A stretch of 64,000 nucleotides of DNA from Candidatus Hepatoplasma crinochetorum. GTDB taxonomy: Bacteria > Bacillota_I > Bacilli_A > Mycoplasmatales > Hepatoplasmataceae. Position 1 is the stretch's first letter; each line of letters begins with the position of its first letter. The notes beneath the pieces were generated by a model. The model was not told the origin of the DNA. It saw only the letters and a program-made list of their open reading frames with translations, and made no database searches. The translations under genes were made by a program, and so were the position numbers. Below, one piece after another: positions 13,391-28,295 of the stretch. The stretch is taken from contig CWGI01000001.1 of assembly GCA_001179805.1 (NCBI GenBank), positions 496,001 to 560,000 on the forward strand, given 5' to 3'.

Positions 13391-13798
13391 ATGGCCAATA
13401 CATTTAAATTATCAATTCTTACGCCCCGCGAAAATTTTTTCGTCGGTGAGGTTCAATTATTAGATATTGAAGCTTTTGATGGTTACATCGGCATTTTAAA
13501 AGATCATATTCCATTTGTTTCCTCTATTAAAACAAATTATTTTTGAATTTTGGATGAAAAAGGAGACAAGAAAAAAGGGGTTATTTTAGATGGAATTTTA
13601 AGTGTTTTACAATCTGAGGTAACGGTGATAACATCAAGAGTTAATTGATTAATTGATAAAGAATTAAAAGTTATCAATGCAAAAATAAAAGAAAAAACTG
13701 ATTTACTTAAAAATGATAAATTAACTGATTTTGAAAGAAAAGAGCTTGAAAAGAAATTACTTTTCTATCAAAAACGTCTCGAAGGTACAGAAAATTAA
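13391..13798 (+). CDS. atpC: F1Fo ATP synthase subunit epsilon
   Basis: The protein (135 aa) begins with the epsilon beta-sandwich (LSILTPRENFFVGEVQLL and AFDGYIGILKDHIPF), followed by a charged helical hairpin that can inhibit hydrolysis. It starts nine bases after atpD and needs TGA read as Trp twice. It is the last gene of the atp operon; a Shine-Dalgarno-led DUF2130 gene follows after 43 bases. Confidence 0.93.
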
Positions 13799-13841
13799 TT
13801 TTATAAAATTAATTTATAATCTAAATGATAGGAGTAGAGTT

Positions 13842-15239
13842 ATGAATAAAGAAATAAAAATTAAATTATTTGATGAAAATAATTTAAAGTTTAAATTACT
13901 AGAAAAAGGAGAAATAGGAGATATTATTAATTTAAATTCACTTAATAATATCGACCTTTCTGTAATTAAAGAAAAAATTAATCTTTTAAAGCAAACAGAG
14001 ATTAGAAATTTAATTGATATTAAATTAAAACAGCAAAAAAAAGAAATTGATTTAACTTATGAAAAACAAATTATTGAATTAAGTCAAAAATATGCTTTAA
14101 AAATATCTAATTTAGAAAAAGATAAGAATTATTTAGAATTAAATTCTGATGCTGAAATTAATAAAAAAGTAACTGAACTTGAAAAAGATTTAAAAACTGA
14201 AATTAATAAAAAAGAAGATCAGATAAGAGAAGAAGCATTTAAGCAAATTGATAAAGTTCTTCAAGTTTCAAACAAAAAAACAGAAGAAATTAATGATCTT
14301 AAATTAAGATTACAAAATTATGAAGAGAGATCTCAACTGACATTAGAAAAAGAATTATATAAAAAAGAACAAGAAATATTTAATCTTAAAATGACCAATG
14401 ATAATTTGATTAAAAAATTAGTAACAGAAAAAGATGAATTACTAGATCAGATTGATTACTTAAAAAGAACTAAATCACAAAATATTAAATTAATTGGAAA
14501 TGATCTTGAAAATTGAATTGATAATAATTTACAGAAAAATTTTGCTTGAAATGAAAGAATTACAATTAAAAAAGAACCAAAACCAATTAATGGTCAAAAA
14601 CCAGATTTTATGATTACAATCAAAAATGGTTCAATTGAAACAAAAATTGTAATTGAAGCTAAAACTGAATTATTGATAAGTGAGAATAAAAAAAATAATC
14701 GTAGTCATCTTGAAAAATTAGAAAATTATCGAAAAAGATCTGACAGTAAATATGCTATTTTAGTTTCAGAACTTGAAAATGAAAAAGATTTTTTGATATA
14801 TAAAGATAGTGATTATAAAAACATTTTTATAATAAGACCACATGTTTTAGTCTCTCTTTTACAATTTATGATCAGTCTTTTAACCGTAAATCAAAAAGTT
14901 CTTGCTTTAAATCTTGAATTTGAAGATAAACAAAAAATTGTGCAAGAATGGGATATTTTTCTAAATGATGTAGATAAAACATTTTCAAATCTTAAAAATA
15001 ATGTTGAAAGCATTCTAGAAGAAAAAGATAAATTATATAAAATTGCAACTAAAATTGGTGAAAGTGCAAATAAAATTTTAGATTCTCATCTTGGGGCTCT
15101 TGAAAAAAAATTAAAGAAATTTAGTATTGAAAAGAAAATTGTAAAAAAAATTACAGAATTGGAAAATATTGAAAGATTGAATGATAATTTTGTAAATGAA
15201 GAAATAAAAATTGAAGAGCAAAAAAAATATCAACTTTAA
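13842..15239 (+). CDS. DUF2130 family coiled-coil protein with nuclease-like domain
   Basis: The protein (465 aa) has a short N-terminal region, a long Lys/Glu-rich coiled coil (about residues 60-215) and a C-terminal domain of the DUF2130 type. In that domain KPDFMITIKNGSIETKIVIE followed by AKTE gives a D...ExK arrangement like PD-(D/E)XK nucleases. It is followed by KYAILVSELENEKDF and NIFIIRPHVLVSLLQFM, typical of DUF2130. The function of this family is not established; it may bind or cut nucleic acid. TAGGAGTAGAGTT precedes the ATG. It shares no obvious function with the upstream atp operon but is probably read through from it, ending at a terminator inside the convergent manA gene. Confidence 0.75.
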
Positions 15240-16297: not shown

Positions 16298-18943
16298 ATG
16301 AGTGAAAATAAAATTGCCTTTGAGAAGTTAATTGTTGATAAAGATTTTAATTCTTCAGAAGAAGTTTTACATGAAATAGCAAATCTTTTAAAAGCAAATA
16401 ATTTTATCGAAGACAGTTCTACTGCTTATTCAAATCTTTTAGCAAGAGAAAAGCAAATTTCAACCGGTGTCGGAAATGGAATTGCTATTCCTCATGCTGA
16501 AATAAAAGATCTTGAAGAACCTAAAATTGCTGTAATTAGATCAAAAAAAGGAATCGAATGAAATTCAATTGATTCTAAAAAAGTTAATTTAATTATCTCA
16601 ATTTTGGTGCCTAAAGAAAATCGTGAAAAACACTTTGAGATATTAACAAAATTATCAAGTTCATTGGTTGAAGCAAAAAATATTGAAAAATTTAAAAATG
16701 CAAATGCAAAAGAACTTGTTGATTATATTGAAAATAGTATTTTAAATGAAAAAGAACAAGAACCACAAAAATTAGATGAAGATAAAAATGTAAAAAAACA
16801 AAATGGGGATCGTAAAGAAATTTTTATAGTTGGGATTACAACATGTCCTACCGGAGTCGCACATACTTTTATGGCCGCAAAAGCTTTAGAAGAAGAAGCT
16901 CCGAAACATAATATAAAATTGAGAATTGAAAAACAAGGACAGATGACAAGAGATAAACTTAGTCAAAAAGAAATTGATCAAGCTGACTATGTTTTACTTG
17001 CAATTGGAAAAGGAATTGATGAACCGGAAAGATTTATCGGTAAAAAAATATATCAAGTTCCAATTGGAAAAGCACTTGTTGAACCTGGCCAAATATTGGA
17101 AGATACAATCATAAAAGCAAAAGCAAAAGGGGGGGGAGAAGATAAAAATCAACAAACAGAAGTTAGATCTGTTAATAGTGAGAAAAAAAGTTTTAATGAA
17201 GGTCCAATAAGACATCTTCTTTCAGGAATTTCATATATGATTCCTTTTATTGCTTTTGCAGGAATTTTATTAGGTCTTACAACAGCATTTGGATATTCTA
17301 CTGGATATACAAATGCTGATGGGATTATTGACCCTACTAATCCTTTAGGACAGATAACAGAATCATTTGCTCCTAAAGGATATGCGGCACTTGCGATAAG
17401 TAATCTGGCAGGGATGGGATTTACGCTTTTTGTACCGATTCTTGGAGGATTTATTGGTAGTTCAATCGCGGGAAGAAAAGCATTAGCACCATCGATGATG
17501 CTTTCGCTTGTTTTAAATGATGCAAGTGGAACAAGTGTATTTAATTATCAAGAAGGAAGATTTGGTGGATTTGATCCAAATTCAGATCCTGTTGCGTTAG
17601 GTTTTTTTGGAGCGATCGCTGCTGGATATTTGGTTGGTTATTTAATCTTATATTTTACAAAATATACAGATAAAGTTGAGAATCAAGCATTTCAAACAAT
17701 TTTACCTTTAATTATTATTCCATTAGTATTTACGTTTGTTCCTTGAGTATTCTTCGCCTTTATCGGTTATTTACCACTTTATTGATTAAGTGTTGGCCTT
17801 AATGATCTGATAAATGTCTTAATAGATGTCAATCTATTATGGCTAGTTGGAGCGATCCTTGGAACGATGATTTGTTTCGATCTGGGAGGACCTGTTAATA
17901 AAATGGCGATGGTAACGGCTGCTTTATTTTTAGCTCCTGGAGCAAATTATTTACCTCTATTAAATGGAGCTGCTGCTGTCTGTGTTGCAATTCCACCGAT
18001 GGTATTAGTTCTTTGTGCTTATATGGGACCTTTACTTGGTTTTAGAATGGATGAAGCAGATAAAGTAAATGCAACAAGTGCAGGAGTAATGGGATTTTTT
18101 GGTGTTACAGAAGGATCAATTCCTTTTGCAGCAAAAGATCCTAAAGTTTATATTCCTTCATTTATGACTGCTGGATTTTTTGCTGGAATGATCGCTATTC
18201 TTGTCGGTGTTGGTAACTCTGTCTCTTTATTTGGGGGTCCAATAATTTATCTTGCAGGAGGAATGGGTAAATCTCCTGATATCGGAGGACAGGTAATGTC
18301 AACCGATTATCTTTATGCTTTGCTTTATTTTGTTCCTTTAATTATCGGTGCTTTCATCGGTATGTTTATGGTTTGTTTATTAAATAAAATTTATAGTAGT
18401 AAAAAAAATAAATTAAGTTACGAATTAAAAAATGAACTTAAAAAAGATAAACAAAAACAATTAAAAATAGCAAAATTTGATATTAAAGAATTAAATCGCA
18501 AATTTAAAAAAGCAAAAATTGATCAAAAAGAATATCAAAAAGAACTTGCTATATTAAGTAAAAAAATTGCCGATATTGAAGATACCTATCATAAAAATTT
18601 AGCAAAATTATTTACTTATGATAATGATTTTAAAAAATATGTTGCCGATAATATCGAAGCAGCAAAAAAAGATTTCTTAGCGCAAAAAGATGAACTTAAA
18701 AAAGAAATCTTAGATTATAAAGCAAAAATAAAAGAGATCAAAAATTCAAAAGAAAAAATAGATAAAAAAGAACAGACAAAAGAATACGAAGATTTAAAAA
18801 CAAAATTTAAAGAACTTAAAAAAGAAGTAAGAACACGTAAAAACAAAATAAGTGATCTTCACTTTCAATTTTTAAATCATCAATTTGCAGATTCTAAAAA
18901 AATAGAATATCATGATAAATTAAAACAATATCTTACTGTATAA
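16298..18943 (+). CDS. fruA: PTS fructose permease, EIIA-EIIB-EIIC, with C-terminal coiled coil
   Basis: The protein (881 aa) imports and phosphorylates fructose. Domains in order: EIIA (residues 1-150; phospho-His 66 in GIAIPHAE), EIIB (about 170-275; Cys 183 in GITTCPTGVAHTF), EIIC (about 305-695; many membrane helices, GVTEGSIPFA loop), then about 185 highly charged residues predicted as coiled coil. Fructose-family EIIB has the CPTGVAHT signature, so the substrate call is good; mannose or related hexoses are possible. I chose the ATG at 16298, preceded by AAAGG, over the TTG seven codons upstream, which overlaps the leader hairpin. The C-terminal extension is not part of usual FruA proteins of about 650-700 aa. 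A strong terminator follows. Confidence 0.93.
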
Positions 18944-18960
18944 GATTGAGATAAAGTTTA

Positions 18961-18995
18961 TAAAAGCAACTACATTTATGTAGTTGCTTTTATTG
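18961..18995 (+). terminator. Strong intrinsic terminator after fruA
   Basis: A perfect 14-bp stem (18961-18974 with 18979-18992, loop TTTA) ends in TTTTATTG. The right arm also contains TTGCTT (18984-18989), which, with TATAAT at 19008-19013, forms a plausible promoter for the next gene (18-base spacer). Confidence 0.85.
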
Positions 18996-19013
18996 TTATT
19001 TAAAGGTTATAAT
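18984..19013 (+). promoter_or_regulatory. Promoter of the DUF262 locus
   Basis: TTGCTT (18984-18989) and TATAAT (19008-19013) with 18-base spacing. The gene follows after a short leader with AAAAAGGTGA. The locus therefore seems to be transcribed independently of fruA. Confidence 0.5.
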
Positions 19014-19047
19014 TAATTTGTTAATTAATTATAAAAAGGTGATAAGA

Positions 19048-21552
19048 ATGGAATATGAAAGCGAAAATTTTACAAAAATATTTAATGAAATAGATAATTT
19101 TGAAAATTTTATTTCTTTAAAAAATGAAGAAGAAATTTTAATTAAAAATAAAATTAAAGATGTTATCTTTAATTTAGAAAAATATGCTTATAAAAATGAT
19201 AAGGAAATAAGTGAAAATTACATAGAAATTTGCAATATTTTAAAAAATTTTTTGAAAATTTTTTTAACTGATTTTATAATTTCAAGAATGAGTCTTAGCG
19301 ATTTTCAATATTATGAAAATGTAAATTCTGATTTTGAAAAAATTATTTTTTTAGATGAAAAAGGATATATAAATAATAAAGAAATAATTGAAAGTTTAAA
19401 ATTTATTTCAAGGATTGCATATTTTAAATTTTTAAGCAATGAAGAAAAAGAAAATTATTTTGAATTTAATAAATTACTTTTACTAAATTGTATAAATAAT
19501 ATTTATATTATATTTCATTGATTTTTTGAATTTGGATCTAATAATATAAAAAAATCTATAAATATAAAAAATTATTATGGTAATTTGAATGAAGGTTTTA
19601 AAACATCAATTAAAATCAAAAAAACTTTTTTTAGCAATATAGAAAAAAACATAGATATTAATCATGAGATATTATTAAATGTATTATCAGATGAAAAAAT
19701 AAAATTTGTAATACCAAATTATCAAAGAAAATATTCATGAAATAAAGATGAAATTAATGATTTAATTTTAGATTTAAAAAAACGAGCAAAAGATGATAAA
19801 AATCATTTTTTTGGAAATATAACTTTAAGTAATATAGGAAATAATGATGAAATTTATCAAAAAATTAAAGAAAATGGTCAAAATTTAAAACAGGAAGTTA
19901 AATTTTTGAAAATTGTAGATGGGCAACAAAGATTGACAACTATAACTCTTTTAATGAGAGTTCTATATGAATCTTATTTGAAAATTTATAAAAATAAAAA
20001 TAAAATAGATATAAATTTAAAAAAATTTGTGGAAAACAAAAATTTACCATCTAATAGATTTGATGATGAAGATTCTAATAAAATATTTAAACTTATTTGA
20101 GAAGGAGATGAAGATTTAAAAGAATTATTTTTTGATTCTGGAAAAGCAAAAAATAATAATATTTTTTTAATTTATAACTATATTTCTAATTTATTTAAAA
20201 AATATGAATTAGAACATCTAAATGAAATTTATAAAGGTCTAATAAAATTATTAGTTGGAATAAATTGAACAAAAGATTATGATGAATTTGAATTATTTGA
20301 ATCTATAAATTCAAAAGGAAAAAAATTAAGTAATTTTGATCAATTTAAATCTTATTTAATTTCGTTGGTTGATTCTGGAATTTCAGAAGAAAATTCAATT
20401 TATATAGGTAATTTATTTAAAAAATATATTGAAAATAAATTAAATATAATAAAACAAGATAGATTTGATATTTTAATAAATGATTTTTTAGATTTTTATA
20501 CTTTTTTTTATGGTGAAAGTTATTTTAAAAATATTTCAGATAATAGAAAATTTTCTAATTTTAGAAATGTCTTTGAAATAAAAATTGCACAAAAGTATAA
20601 AAAAAACAAAAATTTTCTTGATTTAAATTTAGAAGAATTTGAAAAAATTTTAAAAGAATTAGCAATTTTTTTAGATTCATATTTATTTGCAAAATCAAAA
20701 GAAAAATTAAAATGAAAAAATTTTGGTTTAATAAAAAATTATTATAAGTATTTTTATATTTTAGAAGGAACTGCTTTTTCAGATATTCTAATTTGTTATT
20801 TAATTAATGAAAGAAATGTTGAGCATAATGAATTAGGGGAATTGATGTTATTTAAAGATCATAATGAATTTAAAAATCTTTTAAAATTATTAGAAAATTT
20901 TAAAATTAGATTAATAATAACAAAATCTAATTATAAAATACATTGAAATAGTTTTTTAAAAGAATTTTATAAAAATTGAAATAAAGATAAAAATATTTCT
21001 TTTTACAATTATTTTCAAAAATTTATTTTTGATAATGGTTATATAATTATTCCTAAAGATAGTATATTTAAAAATTATTTAAATAATTCAATTGAAGAAA
21101 AAAATGTAATAAGAGACATTCTTTTAAAACTTTATCAAAATAACGATAAAAATATTTTTGATGAATATGACTTAAACACAATTGAATTATATCCAATAAT
21201 TGAGCCAAAAGAAATTGAACGAGAAAATACTCATTGGAATGAATATTTAACGAATTTTTATGATGTTAGAGAGCAAGAATTTTTAAAATTAGGTAATTTC
21301 TTTTTATATAAAAAGAATCCACAATTTAAAAAAGATTTAAAACAAAGTTATGATAATTTACTAAAAAATTTAAATAAAAATAATGATAATTTTTCTTTAA
21401 ATTTATTAAACCATTATGAAATTGAATCTATAAATAATCTTGGAAATTATCGAAATGAAAGCATTAAAAATTTTTTAAATAAAAGAACAAATTTTTATAT
21501 TAATGAAATAACTAAAATATTTTCATTAGATAATATTAGTAAAAATATATAA
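19048..21552 (+). CDS. DUF262/DUF1524 (GmrSD-like) protein with extra N-terminal domain
   Basis: The protein (834 aa) has three parts. Residues 1 to about 185 form a helical domain whose layout (NLEKYAY, later IIFHWFFEFG) resembles the DUF4145-like domain at the N-terminus of some restriction subunits. About 215-480 is DUF262: PNYQRKYSWNKDEIN (224-238), HFFGNITL, VDGQQRLTT (290-298) and FESINSKGKKLSNFD (about 417). The last 130 residues look like DUF1524, with LGNFFLYKKNPQFKK, but the usual EHIxP histidine is replaced (TIELYPIIEP, about 711). DUF262 plus DUF1524 proteins include the GmrSD type IV restriction enzymes that cut modified DNA. I chose the ATG at 19048 (AAAAAGGTGA upstream). The DNA is extremely AT-rich: 5 of 60 bases are G/C in 20401-20460. 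It is cotranscribed with the small gene 36 bases downstream. A defence role is inference. Confidence 0.75.
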
Positions 21553-21588
21553 TTTATATGTAAAACTTTTCAAAATACAAAGGAAAAC

Positions 21589-22104
21589 ATGGAAAATAGA
21601 ACAGAAAACTTTTCAAAAGTATTAAGTGTAATAAATAATTATAATTTTAAAAATCCAGAAAATAAAAAATTAGCAGAGGATGCTTTTAAAAAAGTAATTG
21701 CTAATTTAGAGAAATTTGCTTATCAGAAAGAAGAAAAACAAGAAGTTAATTTTGATAATGTAAAAAGTATGATTTTAAAATTTATTAATGTTTTTTTAAA
21801 TAATTTTGTAGAGGAAAAATTAAAACCTGATCAAATAAATGATTATAAAAATTTAAAATCTATTCCAGATAAAATAAATTTTTTAGCACAAAATCAATAT
21901 TTCTCATATAACAGTGAAATCAATGAAGGATTATATTATCTTTTTGTAAAAGGTAATTCAGAAAATAAAGATACTGTAAAAAAATTAATCTTAATAAATT
22001 CAATTTATCATATTTTTAATCTTCTTTGCTGATTCTTTAATATTGATCCAAAAAAAGCAAAAAAAGAATTAAATATCAAAAGATATTTTATAAATGAAAA
22101 ATAA
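21589..22104 (+). CDS. Stand-alone paralogue of the N-terminal domain of the DUF262 protein
   Basis: This protein (171 aa) has no recognised family, but aligns by eye along its length with residues 1 to about 175 of the preceding protein: ENFSKV with ENFTKI, VIANLEKFAYQKEE with VIFNLEKYAYKNDKE, ILKFINVFLNNFV with ILKNFLKIFLTDFI, and LLCWFFNIDPKKAKKELNIKRYF with the HWFFEFG...INIKNYY stretch. It is helical, without signal peptide. AAAGGAAAAC precedes the ATG. It is the second gene of the two-gene island and is followed by a terminator. It may be a partner subunit, a decoy or an inhibitor of the large protein; nothing in the sequence decides this. Confidence 0.7.
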
Positions 22105-22135
22105 AATTTAATTTTTAAGTAACATTTCAAAATAT

Positions 22136-22162
22136 AAAACATCTTTTTAAGATGTTTTTTTT
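22136..22162 (+). terminator. Intrinsic terminator after the DUF262 locus
   Basis: AAAACATCTT (22136-22145) and AAGATGTTTT (22149-22158) with loop TTT, followed by a run of Ts. Confidence 0.8.
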
Positions 22163-22233
22163 ATTGTAAATTAAATAAAAGATATAATTAAAATAAATTA
22201 TTTTTCAGATTATATTTATTTTAGGAGAAGGAA

Positions 22234-22464
22234 ATGTTTGGATTTAGTGGACCTGATTGATTTGTTGCATTAATTTTAGTAATTGCGTTTGCTCTTTCTT
22301 TTTCTATTTCATTATTATTTGATTGATCAAAAATTTTACGATTTGAAAAAAAAGAAACAAGTATTGGGATTTTGGTTTCTGTGATTTTTTCAATTGCTCT
22401 TTCTGTTTTACTTACACTTTTTATATTAATTTTAACAGAACCAATTTTTAGTGCTTTTTATTAA
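22234..22464 (+). CDS. Small two-helix membrane protein, possibly SecG-like
   Basis: The protein (76 aa) has two predicted membrane segments (about residues 9-29 and 44-68) joined by a short charged loop (DWSKILRFEKKET). It needs TGA read as Trp three times. TTAGGAGAAGGAA is a strong ribosome binding site. It lies 37 bases before secA, and two-helix topology would suit SecG, but I do not see the SecG glycine-rich loop, so I leave it unnamed. Confidence 0.6.
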
Positions 22465-22501: not shown

Positions 22502-24907
22502 ATGGCTTTAAGGAAAAATAAAACAAAAGAAAAAAGAGCAAAACAAGCAATAAAATATTATAAAATTTTACGAAAAGCAGAGACTATTTCAGAAGAGGTT
22601 ATTAGTAAAGCAAAATCTTTTGAAGAACAATTAAAAGGTGCTGCCTTTAAAAGAAAAACAGAAGAATTTTTAAATTTAATACTTAAAGATAAAAAAAGTT
22701 TAGATAGTATTTTGGTTGATGTTTTTGCTACTGGTTATCTTGCGATTAAAGAAATATATGGTATTACTTTACATAAAGTTCAAATTATGGGTGCATATGC
22801 TTTACACCGTGGAGATGTTGCAGAAATGAAAACAGGAGAAGGAAAAACACTTACTGCTGTTCTTCCTGCTTATCTTAATGCATTAGAAAAAAAAGGTGTT
22901 CATATAGTTACAGTAAATGAATATTTATCAACTCGTGATGCCTTTAATATCGGTAAAATATTTCATTTACTAGGTCTTTCTGTCGGTTCGGTATTAAAAG
23001 AACAATCGCCAGATCAAAAAAGAAAAGAATATGCAAAAGATATTACATATCTTACAAATTCAGAATTAGGATTTGATTACTTAAGAGATAATATGGTAAT
23101 TAATATAAAAGATAAGATGCAACAAGAATTTAATTATGCAATAGTTGATGAAGTTGATTCAATTCTTATTGATGAATCAAGAACTCCACTTATTATTTCA
23201 GGTGGAATAAATGTCGTTGAAAAAGAATATCATGATGTAAATAATTTTGTATCTACTCTTTTAGAAAATGATTATATTGTCGATCGGGAGACAAGACAAG
23301 CATTTCTTACTGAATCTGGAGTGTTAAAAGCAGAAAAAATTTTTAACATAAAAAATCTTTATTCTTACAAAAATTCATTATTAGTTCATTTAATATTTAA
23401 TTCATTACAAGCAAATTATATTTACAAATTGGATGTTGATTATACCGTAAAAGAAGATCAAATTATTTTAATTGATGTATTTACAGGTAGATTATTAGAG
23501 GGAAGACAATTTTCAGAAGGATTAAATCAAGCAATTGAAGCAAAGGAAAATGTTACAATAAATCCCGAAACAAAAACACTAGCTTCAATTACATATCAAA
23601 ATCTTTTCCGTATGTATAAAAAATTATCAGGAATGTCTGGAACAGCAATTACAGAAGAGGAAGAATTTTTAGATGTTTATAATATGCGTGTGCTACAAAT
23701 TCCTACTGATTTGCCGATTATAAGAAAAGATAAAGCTGATGTGATATATGCGACTAAAGATGCTAAATTTAATGGGATTGTTAATAAAATTTTGCAAATT
23801 CATCAAACTGAACAACCAATTCTAGTTGGTACAAGAGCGGTCAGTGAATCAGAAGAATTAGCAAAATTATTAGAAGCAAAAGATATTAAATTTGAAATTT
23901 TAAATGCAAAAAATCATGCTCGTGAGGCCGATATTATTGCAAAAGCAGGACAAAAAAATTCGATTACTATTTCTACAAATATGGCTGGTCGAGGAACAGA
24001 TATTAAATTAGGAAAAGGAGTAAAAAAACTAGGTGGTCTTTTTGTATTAGGAACGGAAAGAAATGATGCAAGAAGAATTGATGATCAATTAAGAGGAAGA
24101 TCTGGACGACAAGGAGATATTGGGATGTCACAATTCTATATTTCATTGGATGATGAAGTAATGCAAAGATCAGGACTTAAGAAATTTCAAAAATTTTTAA
24201 AATCAATTGATCAAGATCCACTAGAAAGTAAATCAATTGCAAGATCAATTAAATCTGCCCAGAAAAAATTAGAGGGTTTAAATTATGATTATCGTAAATC
24301 AATAATTGAATATGATTCAGTTTTAAATTATCAAAGAATTATTACTTATAATCAACGTAATTTAATATTAAAAGCAGCAGATTTTACAAATATAATTGAA
24401 CAATTATTGAACAATTTTTTAAAGAATTTATCTAAATTAGAGAAAGTTTTTGAAAAAAATACTTTTAGTTCAAAATTATATTTTGTAAAATTAAATCATG
24501 ACTTTAATTTAACTTTAAAAGAAGAAGATAATTTAGAAATTGAACAGGCAGAAATAATTGCAAAAGAAGTATTATCAAAAAAATTAAAAGATAAAATTAA
24601 TAATTTTATCGAAGCAAATAAATTTGATGTAATTGATTATATAAGAAAAATTTTTTTATTCTCAATTGATATGAATTGACAGAAACAATTAGATCAATTA
24701 GATAAATTAAAATCTGGAATTAGATATCGTCAATATGCACAAAAAAATCCAGTCCAAATTTATATTCAAGAAGCTGATAAATTATTTAATCTTTATCGAG
24801 CTGAGATTAATGAGCAGATAATTACGATGTTATTAAATGCTAATCCACTTAATATGAATTTAAAACGCCAAGGTGAACAAAAAGTAAAAGACTTATTTGT
24901 TAGTTAA
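22502..24907 (+). CDS. secA: Preprotein translocase ATPase SecA
   Basis: The motor of the Sec pathway (801 aa) pushes preproteins through SecYEG. Walker A MKTGEGKTLTA (about residue 110), DEAD-type DEVDSILIDESRTP, STNMAGRGTDIKLG and the QLRGRSGRQGD arginine finger region are complete. The helical scaffold and C-terminal segment are present, but the zinc-binding C-terminal tail of E. coli SecA is missing, as is common in mollicutes. AAGGAAAAATTATGG supports the start. TGA at 24677-24679 is Trp. Confidence 0.97.
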
Positions 24908-24928: not shown

Positions 24929-26581
24929 GTGACTGAAAAAAAAGAAATAAGTACAGAAAGTAATAAGCATCAATATGGTCTATTATCAATGCTTGCGATG
25001 ATTGTCGGTGTTGTTGTTGGATCTGGTGTCTATGTTGTAAATGATAGTTTATATCAGATAAGTGGAAGTGTAGGACTTATTATAATTACTTGAATTATAA
25101 TAAGTTTAATCGTTCTTTTTATGCTTGTAGCTTTTATTGAAATAGCTTCAATTACAGCGAGGACAAAAGAAGTTGGAACGATTAATAATTGATTCAGACA
25201 TCTTTGAGGAGAAAAAGGTTCTAAATATGTCGGAGTTTTTTTCCCAATCATTTATTTTCCGATTTTAATTTCTGTTCTTACTGTAATTGGATCAGAACAA
25301 TTATTTAATACGATTTGAATCGATGGTAATCATGATAATCCTTATTTAATGTTTTTATTTGTGACTTTATTTGCATATCTTTTTGCTTCGCTTTTTTATG
25401 GTGTAAATGCTTTTACACAAAAACCAGGAAAAATTTTCCAAAGTACAGGAACAGTTATTAAATTAATTCCTCTATTTTTGTTAATCTTTTTAGGAATATT
25501 AGCTGCTGGAAATGCTTTTTCTCCTGCCAACGCGGCATTTGATAATGGTGGTAATTTTAATTTTTTCGATCCAAATGCAGCATTTAATCAAGGATGGAGC
25601 GGTGGTCCGAATGGATGAGATAGTGGAATCACTAATTTAAAGATTATTCTTCTAATGGCTCCTACGATTATGTTTTCTTTTGATGGATTTTTATTTGCAG
25701 CAACTTTACAAAATGAATCTAAAAAGCCTTCTACTTATAAAGTTGCAGCCATTTCTGGAATTGTTTTTATTGTCTTTATTTATCTTATTTTATCGCTTTT
25801 TGTTTTTGCATTTGGTGATCCAGGTCAAAATCATGATTTTAGTGTTGTTAACTGTGTATTTAATATCACCGGACAAAAATGATTATCAATAATAATTGGA
25901 CTTATGATCGTAATATCTGTTTATACAGGATTTTCAGCATGTACAATTGCTCAAAATAGAATGCTTGCAGATCTTTCTGTTAATAATCAAATTCGTGATC
26001 CAAATGGTGACTTAATCGCAAGAAATAAAGCAAAGGTTCCGCAAAAAGCAGCTTTATGGTCTTGAGGGTTAACGATATTTTGGTTAACTATTCTAAGAAT
26101 CTTAGATCTTGCAATTTTAATTAGTTTGATAAGCGAAGATAGTGGAACGATAACTTCTACCTTATTTATCTCTGGTTGGTCACTTAATTTTATAACTTTG
26201 CTTTCTTATACAACTTATGCCTTATTGATTGTAGGAGCATTTAAAAATCGTTTTGATGATAAAGTCGAAGTTGAGAAAAATAAATTTTTCTATCCTGCAG
26301 CAATTATTTCTGTTTTTGCGATGGCGATTATTTTAATTGTCTTTACGATTAATTTGTTTGATTATCGACCTATATTTGATGCAAATGATAATTTAACAGT
26401 ATCGGGATTATTGTCATATTTAATTCATATTTTTATGGTAATTTTTATTATTCTATTTGCTGTTCTATTACCAATTTATCTTGCAAAAGATGTAAGAAAA
26501 GCAAAAAAAGAAGAAGCTATCAAAAAAGAAAAATTAATTAAACAGTATTTACAAAATAAAACAGATCCACGTTTTAATTAA
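24929..26581 (+). CDS. Amino-acid permease (APC superfamily), copy 1
   Basis: A polytopic membrane protein (550 aa) with about 12 helices. The first helix contains IVGVVVGSGVYVVNDSLYQIS, the APC GxxxGSG substrate-binding loop; later PTIMFSFDGFLFAATLQNESK is the helix-6 region of this group. The start is GTG, the only candidate near AAGGAGAAAAGAAGAAGG. Long hydrophilic loops rich in Asn, Phe and Gly (NFNFFDPNAAFNQGW) sit outside the membrane core. The substrate cannot be told from sequence. Its downstream neighbour is a close paralogue, so this is a tandem duplication. Trp is often written TGA. Confidence 0.85.
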
Positions 26582-26636
26582 CAATAAATGTAAGAATAAA
26601 GATAAATAAAAAAATATTTATTGGAGTTTTTTAAAA

Positions 26637-28295
26637 ATGAATAAAAAGAGTTTTACTAATAAAAGTAATCAAGAAGGCCAATATGGTCTTTTATCAATGC
26701 TTGCGCTAATTGTTGGAGTTGTAATAGGTTCTGGTATTTATGTTGTAAATGATGCTTTATATAAAATAAGTAATAGTGCTGGTCTTATTATAATCTCTTG
26801 ACTTTTAATAGCATTGATTGTTCTTTTTATGCTTATCGCTTTTATTGAAATAAGTTCAATTACAGCTAAAAAAAAGGAAGCGGGAACGATTAATAATTGA
26901 TTTAAACATCTCTGGGGCAAGAAGTATTCTAAATACATCGGTGTGTTTTTTGCAATCGTTTATTTTCCTGTCTTAATTTCAGTTCTTTCTATTATTTTGG
27001 GAGAAGAATTTTTTAAAACAATTTGACCTATCAACAACGCAACCGGGGGATATGATTCTCCTTATTTAATGTTTCTTTTTGTTACGGTTGTTTCTTTTTT
27101 TGCAATAAATATAATTTTTGCAATAAATACATATACATTTAAACCAGGAAATAAAATTCAAGAAACAGGAACAATTATTAAATTAATTCCACTTATTCTT
27201 TTGATATTTCTAGGATTATTAATTTTAATGAATGCATTTACAGCTAATAATGATGCGATAAATAATGGAGAAGGAAATTTTAATTTTTTTGACTCAACAG
27301 CAGCTTTTAATCAAGGCTGGAGTAATAATGGATTTGAAAATTTTAAAATGATTCTTCTGATGGCACCTACGATTATGTTTTCATTTGATGGTTTTTTATT
27401 CGCAGCTTCATTACAAAATGAATCTAAAAAACCCTCTACTTATAAAGTAGCTGCTTTAAGTGGAGTTATTTTCATTATTTTAATATATATTCTTCTTTCC
27501 TTATTTGTTTTTGCCTTCGGAGATGAAAGTGGAGGATTTATTGTAGCTAATTCTCTTTATAATATTACAGGACAAAAATGATTATCTACACTTGTAGGAT
27601 TAATGATTGTTATTTCTGTTTTTACAGGAATTTCTGGAAATTCAATTGCCCAAAATAGAATGATAGCTGATCTTTCAGTTAACAACGAAATAAAAGATTT
27701 AAATGGTAATTTAATTGCAAGAAATAAAGCAAAGGTTCCGCAAAATTCAGCTAAATTAAGTTGGATTTTAGCATTAATGTGATTACTAATATTTCGTTTA
27801 TTTGATTTATTCATATTGATAAGTATTGTAGAAAATAAAGATCAATTTATAACTTTTAATACAGTAAATTCAACACTTTTTATATCGGGGTGATCACTTA
27901 ATTTTATTACTTTAATTTCTTATACATTTTATGTACTTGTTATTATAGGGGCATTTAAAAATCGATTTAATCATAAAGTTGAAGTTGATAAAAATAAATT
28001 TTTCTATCCTGCTGCTTTCATTTCAATTGTGATGATATCTATTATTTTACTTGTATTTATGATTGATCTATTCGATTATCGTACGATATTTACAGATAAT
28101 AATCAAATAATTATTTCAGAATTGCTTTCTTATATTTTTCATATAATGGTTGTTGTTATAATAATTTTGATAATAATTTTTCTTCCAATTTATCTTGCAA
28201 AAGATGTAAAAAAAGCAAGTAAGGAAGAATTAAGAAAAAAAGAAAAATTAATAAAAGCATATAAAATGCAGAAGATAGATCCAAGATATAAATAA
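26637..28295 (+). CDS. Amino-acid permease (APC superfamily), copy 2
   Basis: The protein (552 aa) is collinear with the preceding permease over its whole length; the blocks GQYGLLSMLALIVGVVIGSG, INNWFKHLWG, PTIMFSFDGFLFAASLQNES and KNKFFYPAA are nearly the same in both. Differences are concentrated in membrane helices and in the loop after helix 4, which suggests different substrate preferences. It starts at 26637; a weak Shine-Dalgarno (TTGGAG) lies 14 bases upstream. No terminator is evident between the copies, so they may be cotranscribed with secA. Confidence 0.85.

Follow-up and report, generated by a model that had tools for sequence, protein, structure and literature searches.

The closest described relatives of the locus analyzed here are systems in which a DUF262 domain is joined to a DUF1524 domain, namely GmrSD, Eco94GmrSD, and BrxU, together with the phosphorothioate-sensing proteins SspE and DndI. 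A modelling study of GmrD assigns H114 as the general base, and nuclease activity has also been proposed for the ParB-like DUF262 fold of GmrS (PMC4619093). DUF4145 belongs to the HEPN superfamily, for which a fusion of HEPN to ParB(DUF262) and HNH (VNG7073) was tabulated in 2013 (PMC3710099).

The present locus lies in a window of 64,000 nucleotides (contig CWGI01000001.1, positions 496,001 to 560,000, forward strand) from Candidatus Hepatoplasma crinochetorum. Hepatoplasma are symbionts of isopod digestive glands. A survey of Hepatoplasma genomes describes type I and type II restriction systems and CRISPR-Cas9, with no mention of DUF262 or GmrSD in its text (PMC10928387). The locus consists of a large DUF262 gene followed by a small gene that resembles its first domain, and is best interpreted, at a probability of roughly 55%, as a mollicute HEPN-DUF262-DUF1524 restriction protein left over, or put to new use, in this lineage specifically, rather than as a functioning nuclease that has a subunit of its own.

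Locus layout and the shared N-terminal domain

The large gene (P0001; positions 19048 to 21552, forward strand) and the small gene (P0002; 21589 to 22104, forward strand) are open reading frames under genetic code 4 (TGA read as Trp), encoding 834 and 171 amino acids and separated by 36 bases. P0001 is arranged as a HEPN-like domain of the DUF4145 type, then DUF262, then a degenerate DUF1524 domain, while P0002 is a free-standing HEPN-like protein. Both ATG codons are preceded by a purine-rich, ribosome-binding-like stretch (for P0002, AAAGGA at 21579 to 21584, forward strand). The Rho-independent terminator of the upstream PTS-fructose gene (18960 to 18993, forward strand; a 15-bp stem with a T tail) is the sole terminator-like site found by a terminator scan across 18900 to 22300, where 0.1 would be expected; a terminator-like stem-loop 3' of the P0002 gene (AAAACATCTT...AAGATGTTTT; 22136 to 22159, forward strand) was read from the sequence and is too A+T-rich for that scan. 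The surrounding gene order (PTS gene, variable segment, small gene, small hydrophobic open reading frame, secA) is common to three species, and secA (22502 to 24907, forward strand), placed by this synteny, forms the right-hand flank of the variable spot. Beyond secA, two successive amino-acid-permease-like genes (24929 to 28295; 550 and 552 amino acids) appear to be a tandem duplication. Further upstream, a 502-amino-acid coiled-coil protein (13731 to 15239) has a syntenic counterpart (L011:2799-4190) in the sister genome G004, Candidatus Hepatoplasma scabrum Ps-JP (AP027133.1), and its C-terminal half presumably resembles a DUF2130-type nuclease-like domain.

The initial annotation reported that the small protein aligns along its whole length with the N-terminal domain of its 834-amino-acid neighbor, and this is borne out by BLASTP: amino acids 1-169 of P0002 match amino acids 1-179 of P0001 with 59/180 identities (33%; 56% positive; 12 gaps; E 7e-19). 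A search of the 621-kb genome places the domain at three sites only, namely P0001 (E 1e-111), P0002 (1e-13), and an 837-amino-acid full-length paralogue at 386.7 kb (2e-13). Homology between the N-terminal domains of the two proteins also survives profile-profile comparison (hhalign), in which the small proteins match the N-domains of the Hepatoplasma big proteins with 97.9% probability (E 6e-13) and a negative control with an unrelated alignment scores near zero. The genome search and the profile comparison together rule out an A+T-rich artefact as the source of the likeness.

Assignment of the P0001 domain (amino acids 1-180; 19048 to 19587, forward strand) rests on alignments and on a chain of hhalign comparisons. 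The Hepatoplasma N-domains match those of other mollicute DUF262 proteins (97%, E 1e-10), and the mollicute N-domains match six independent DUF4145 proteins (95.2%, E 2.6e-8, 144 columns). Compared directly with DUF4145, the small proteins reach 0.2% only, and their membership is therefore transitive, being reached through intermediates. The Pfam family DUF4145 matches 10 of 22 N-domains weakly (best 2e-5) and HEPN_Apea two of the 22, while P0002 alone has no match in Pfam, NCBIfam, or PADLOC and is placed by the profile chains only. A PDB profile search with the N-domain returned nothing meaningful; the HepT toxin 7bxo appears among the PDB fold matches without significance, and the mediocre structure model of P0002 (pLDDT 67.7, three sequences in the alignment) likewise gave no significant fold match. 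Taken as profile evidence, these comparisons class the domain common to P0001 and P0002 as DUF4145/HEPN-superfamily type.

Most mollicute relatives carry the catalytic HEPN motif as RNxxxH. P0001 instead reads RIAYFKFL at this site, so that the R-x4-6-H RNase motif is lost, and the small proteins, including P0002, have the entire stretch deleted. Hepatoplasma full-length copies located at ksgA keep the His and have lost the Arg. These residues bear on a toxin-antitoxin-like reading, in which P0002 would be the antitoxin or neutralizer of a HEPN toxin, either P0001 or its paralogue. Many systems use HEPN domains as RNase toxins (PMC3710099), and dead HEPN copies could conceivably serve as their partners. 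However, with the motif lost from both window proteins and only the His kept in the ksgA paralogues, there is no evident RNase for P0002 to neutralize, and no toxin-antitoxin family was matched at the locus, making this reading very improbable.

The DUF262 core, the C-terminal domain, and the mollicute cassette

The DUF262 (GmrSD_N) domain of P0001 (amino acids 211-437; 19678 to 20358, forward strand) matches PF03235 at 5.6e-30, and its YQR and DGQQR motifs are intact, with Y225, Q226, R227, D291, G292, Q293, Q294, and R295 invariant across 18 homologues. The GmrSD-type ancestry initially proposed for P0001 is upheld by these features. The further label of a DUF262/DUF1524-type protein holds for DUF262 and, in terms of ancestry, for DUF1524, but not for an intact nuclease domain. 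The C-terminal domain (amino acids 700-834; 21145 to 21549, forward strand) is recognizable as DUF1524-derived by full-length alignment and fold, and has no Pfam match to GmrSD_C/DUF1524 (PF07510) at E<=1. That family matches 12 of the 18 homologues, as many as keep the catalytic His, and none of the six from Hepatoplasmataceae. The AF2 model of P0001 (pLDDT 74.6), whose PDB matches are DndI, SspE, and BrxU, retains an HNH-like strand-strand-helix in this domain, and G749, N750, and W730 are likewise retained. However, where relatives carry IEH(I/V)xP, P0001 reads ELYPIIEP (amino acids 713-720; 21184 to 21207, forward strand), without the His.

The catalytic His is absent from all six Hepatoplasmataceae copies, as against 12/12 complete mollicute relatives and 23/23 aligned viral DUF262 proteins that keep it (69/71 viral proteins when scored by motif), and the second Asn of the (D/E)H, N, N set is also not conserved in Hepatoplasmataceae. 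Misalignment was rejected as the cause, the His being missing in two independent alignments; the facing residue depends on the alignment chosen, being E/D or else P or a gap. From these residues, the HNH nuclease of P0001 is predicted to be dead, although the DUF262 fold could possibly hold residual nuclease activity. Since the His is gone in all six copies and C5 methyltransferases are absent from the window genome, the description of P0001 as a nuclease protein is unsupported. In another genome of the family (G009), a His-less copy adjoins a second DUF262 gene with an HNH-like HIDHVIP motif (L062:3923-8250, reverse strand), placing a dead protein beside a possibly live one.

The HEPN-DUF262-DUF1524 architecture is widespread in mollicutes. 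At all 18 loci outside Hepatoplasmataceae with readable surroundings, a DNA methyltransferase gene belongs to the cassette, and 17 of the 18 also encode an accessory protein (~180-250 amino acids, but 429 at one locus) whose start is KFWKxxT-like; the three members scanned had no Pfam or PADLOC match. The methyltransferases form one family in 16/18 loci, those of the other two (L066 and L067) being recognized by motif only. Members of the family resemble M.SssI and M.MpeI in the catalytic part; the target-recognition part is not alignable, which leaves CpG specificity putative, and the nearest solved structure for the two tested is M.MpeI, a CpG enzyme. The set of C5 methyltransferase, accessory gene, and HEPN-DUF262-DUF1524 gene with an intact HNH is seen at L064, L065, L069, L070, L075, and L157-L167. 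At the window locus, neither a methyltransferase nor an accessory gene is adjacent; the accessory gene was absent from five Hepatoplasmataceae genomes in a search that detected its three positive controls, and some sister species do encode C5 methyltransferases at other genomic positions.

An active nuclease left without its methylase would threaten its host, a consideration consistent with the missing catalytic His. A more specific scenario, in which the cassette exists and the Hepatoplasma nuclease lost both active sites and the methylase before being domesticated as a HEPN-HEPN regulatory pair, can be offered only tentatively and is itself doubtful. Prokaryotic CpG methylation has been described as exclusive to mollicutes, with an unknown role and orphan enzymes (PMC9465063). 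The cassette is possibly the missing restriction side of these CpG-type methylases, and if it does supply the orphan enzymes with a restriction partner, then the role of mollicute CpG methylation becomes testable.

Distribution of the small gene and history of the pair

While the two genes are adjacent in the window, the pair is not conserved, and the small gene is the part that related species keep. Two sister species carry it between the PTS gene and secA without the big gene, leaving the two adjacent in only one of the three small-gene carriers. A search of 298 genomes of the order detected a free-standing N-domain copy adjoining a DUF262 gene in the window genome alone, so the neighborhood survey suggested by the initial annotation produced no second example. 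Other candidates in the order were rejected: a 63- plus 102-amino-acid pair of N-domain matches and a 300-amino-acid match are broken full-length genes beside decayed methyltransferases, and weak matches at five further loci are unrelated proteins. None of 80 DUF262 loci on viral contigs has the N-domain.

Across the three species, the small protein has 76-82% identity, comparable to secA, the PTS gene, and nagA, and its dN/dS (0.18-0.30) is akin to that of neighboring and housekeeping genes, indicating purifying selection. All three species also have the full-length paralogue, positioned ahead of ksgA or, in one, after nagB, and a small partner is never present there. A fourth Hepatoplasma genome has a single full-length gene at another place and lacks the small gene, from which it follows that the small protein is dispensable to some full-length copies. 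The PTS-secA interval is itself variable. In sister genome G003, it holds the defense genes IetA and IetS on the opposite strand (PADLOC 4e-30 and 4e-32), so that defense-type genes occupy it in two of three species. These genes, plus a 194-amino-acid protein (L009:4708-8472, reverse strand), stand where the window has the big gene, and approximately seven tandem copies of a ~21-bp unit (TATAAAAATGGTGGTAAAAAG) lie between IetA and the small gene (L009:8480-8630).

This distribution weighs against a functional two-gene defense system, in which P0001 would restrict foreign DNA with P0002 as an obligate subunit, regulator, or inhibitor. The shared strand, the short gap, the shared domain, the flanking terminator-like hairpins, and the intact DUF262 motifs all speak for such a system, as does the finding that the small gene is most closely related to the N-domain of its neighbor. 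Nevertheless, two species keep the small gene without the big one, big genes elsewhere never have a small partner, the HNH His is missing throughout Hepatoplasmataceae, and adjacency is confined to one genome of the order. A working two-gene system is thus distinctly unlikely, and the refuting case named in the initial annotation, absence of the small gene from otherwise conserved loci, came out reversed, the small gene being conserved and the big gene variable. As related species keep the small gene and not the pair, the locus is better regarded as a lineage-specific leftover or re-use than as a conserved two-gene weapon.

Alternatively, P0001 might be a decaying, functionless former restriction protein and P0002 a protein of unrelated role. 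The loss of both P0001 active sites, the lack of a C5 methyltransferase in the genome, and the confinement of P0001 itself to one of the four Hepatoplasma genomes are compatible with neutral decay. Reduced mollicute genomes, however, discard neutral genes quickly, while the P0001 frame is intact over 834 codons with its DUF262 motifs untouched, and the ksgA-locus paralogue is under purifying selection (dN/dS 0.24-0.30), rendering neutral decay rather unlikely.

Under the preferred reading of a lineage-specific remnant or re-use, the two genes probably lie side by side as the result of an old partial tandem duplication at the variable PTS-secA spot. The tree of N-domains places the small genes as the sister group of the P0001 N-domain (support 97/95), and a recent duplication was rejected because the branches are long (1.0 and 1.25 changes per site). 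In the simplest reading, the big gene would afterwards have been lost in the sister species; a gain beside its relative in the window lineage is also possible, since the species order of the trio is compatible with both gain and loss. P0001 would then combine an intact nucleotide-binding or sensor DUF262 core with the loss of the HNH His and the HEPN motif and, if it acts at all, would most likely serve as a scaffold or competitor that senses DNA or phage under nucleotide control and does not cut. P0002 would be an independently maintained, catalytically silent HEPN-like protein. HEPN domains commonly pair, which makes homotypic pairing between P0001 and P0002 reasonable, and P0002 may act as a subunit, regulator, or inhibitor through such contacts. 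Most likely, it would pair through its HEPN fold with the N-domains of full-length proteins and tune their assembly, its partners being P0001 and the ksgA-locus paralogue found in every carrier of the small gene.

The apparent two-gene nuclease system is thereby recast as restriction-enzyme retirement, with what is likely a retired restriction protein standing beside an independently kept HEPN-like protein. Hepatoplasmataceae keep DUF262 proteins without nuclease residues, and some species retain the free-standing first domain under selection. The comparison also brings to light the intact form found in other mollicutes, where methylase, accessory protein, and HEPN-DUF262-HNH protein make up a conserved cassette.

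Comparison with known systems

Like GmrSD, Eco94GmrSD, and BrxU, P0001 has a DUF262 core with YQR and DGQQR, a long helical linker, and a DUF1524-derived C-terminus, and its full-length model matches BrxU (7p9m) at E 7e-4. It differs from these systems in the extra N-terminal HEPN-like domain and the adjacent small paralogue of that domain, and from GmrSD in lacking the catalytic His (H114 of GmrD, PMC4619093). SspE and DndI provide the best PDB fold matches of P0001 (9jfl, 2e-9; 7drs, 5e-8), and SspE is also among the PADLOC matches. According to published accounts, the HNH nuclease of SspE and DndI is active, unlike the predicted dead domain of P0001; in addition, no phosphorothioation genes were seen in the inspected neighborhoods. 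Neither SspE nor DndI is known to carry a HEPN domain.

The PADLOC profiles HEC-06 and Orf5, which describe candidate DUF262 plus DUF1524 defense proteins, match at 1e-22 to 1e-25; the Orf5 match in the paralogue spans nearly the full Orf5 length, and in both cases the profile is restricted to the region following the N-domain. That domain has its profile likeness in the DUF4145/HEPN superfamily, from which the two window proteins depart in having lost R-x4-6-H. The mollicute cassette proteins share the three-domain architecture of P0001 at 16-21% identity, and differ from it in their intact HNH, their often intact RNxxxH, and the adjacent methyltransferase and 'KFWK' accessory genes. The Hepatoplasma locus is a lineage-specific variant of this known architecture, and the intact mollicute cassette is the more interesting thread.
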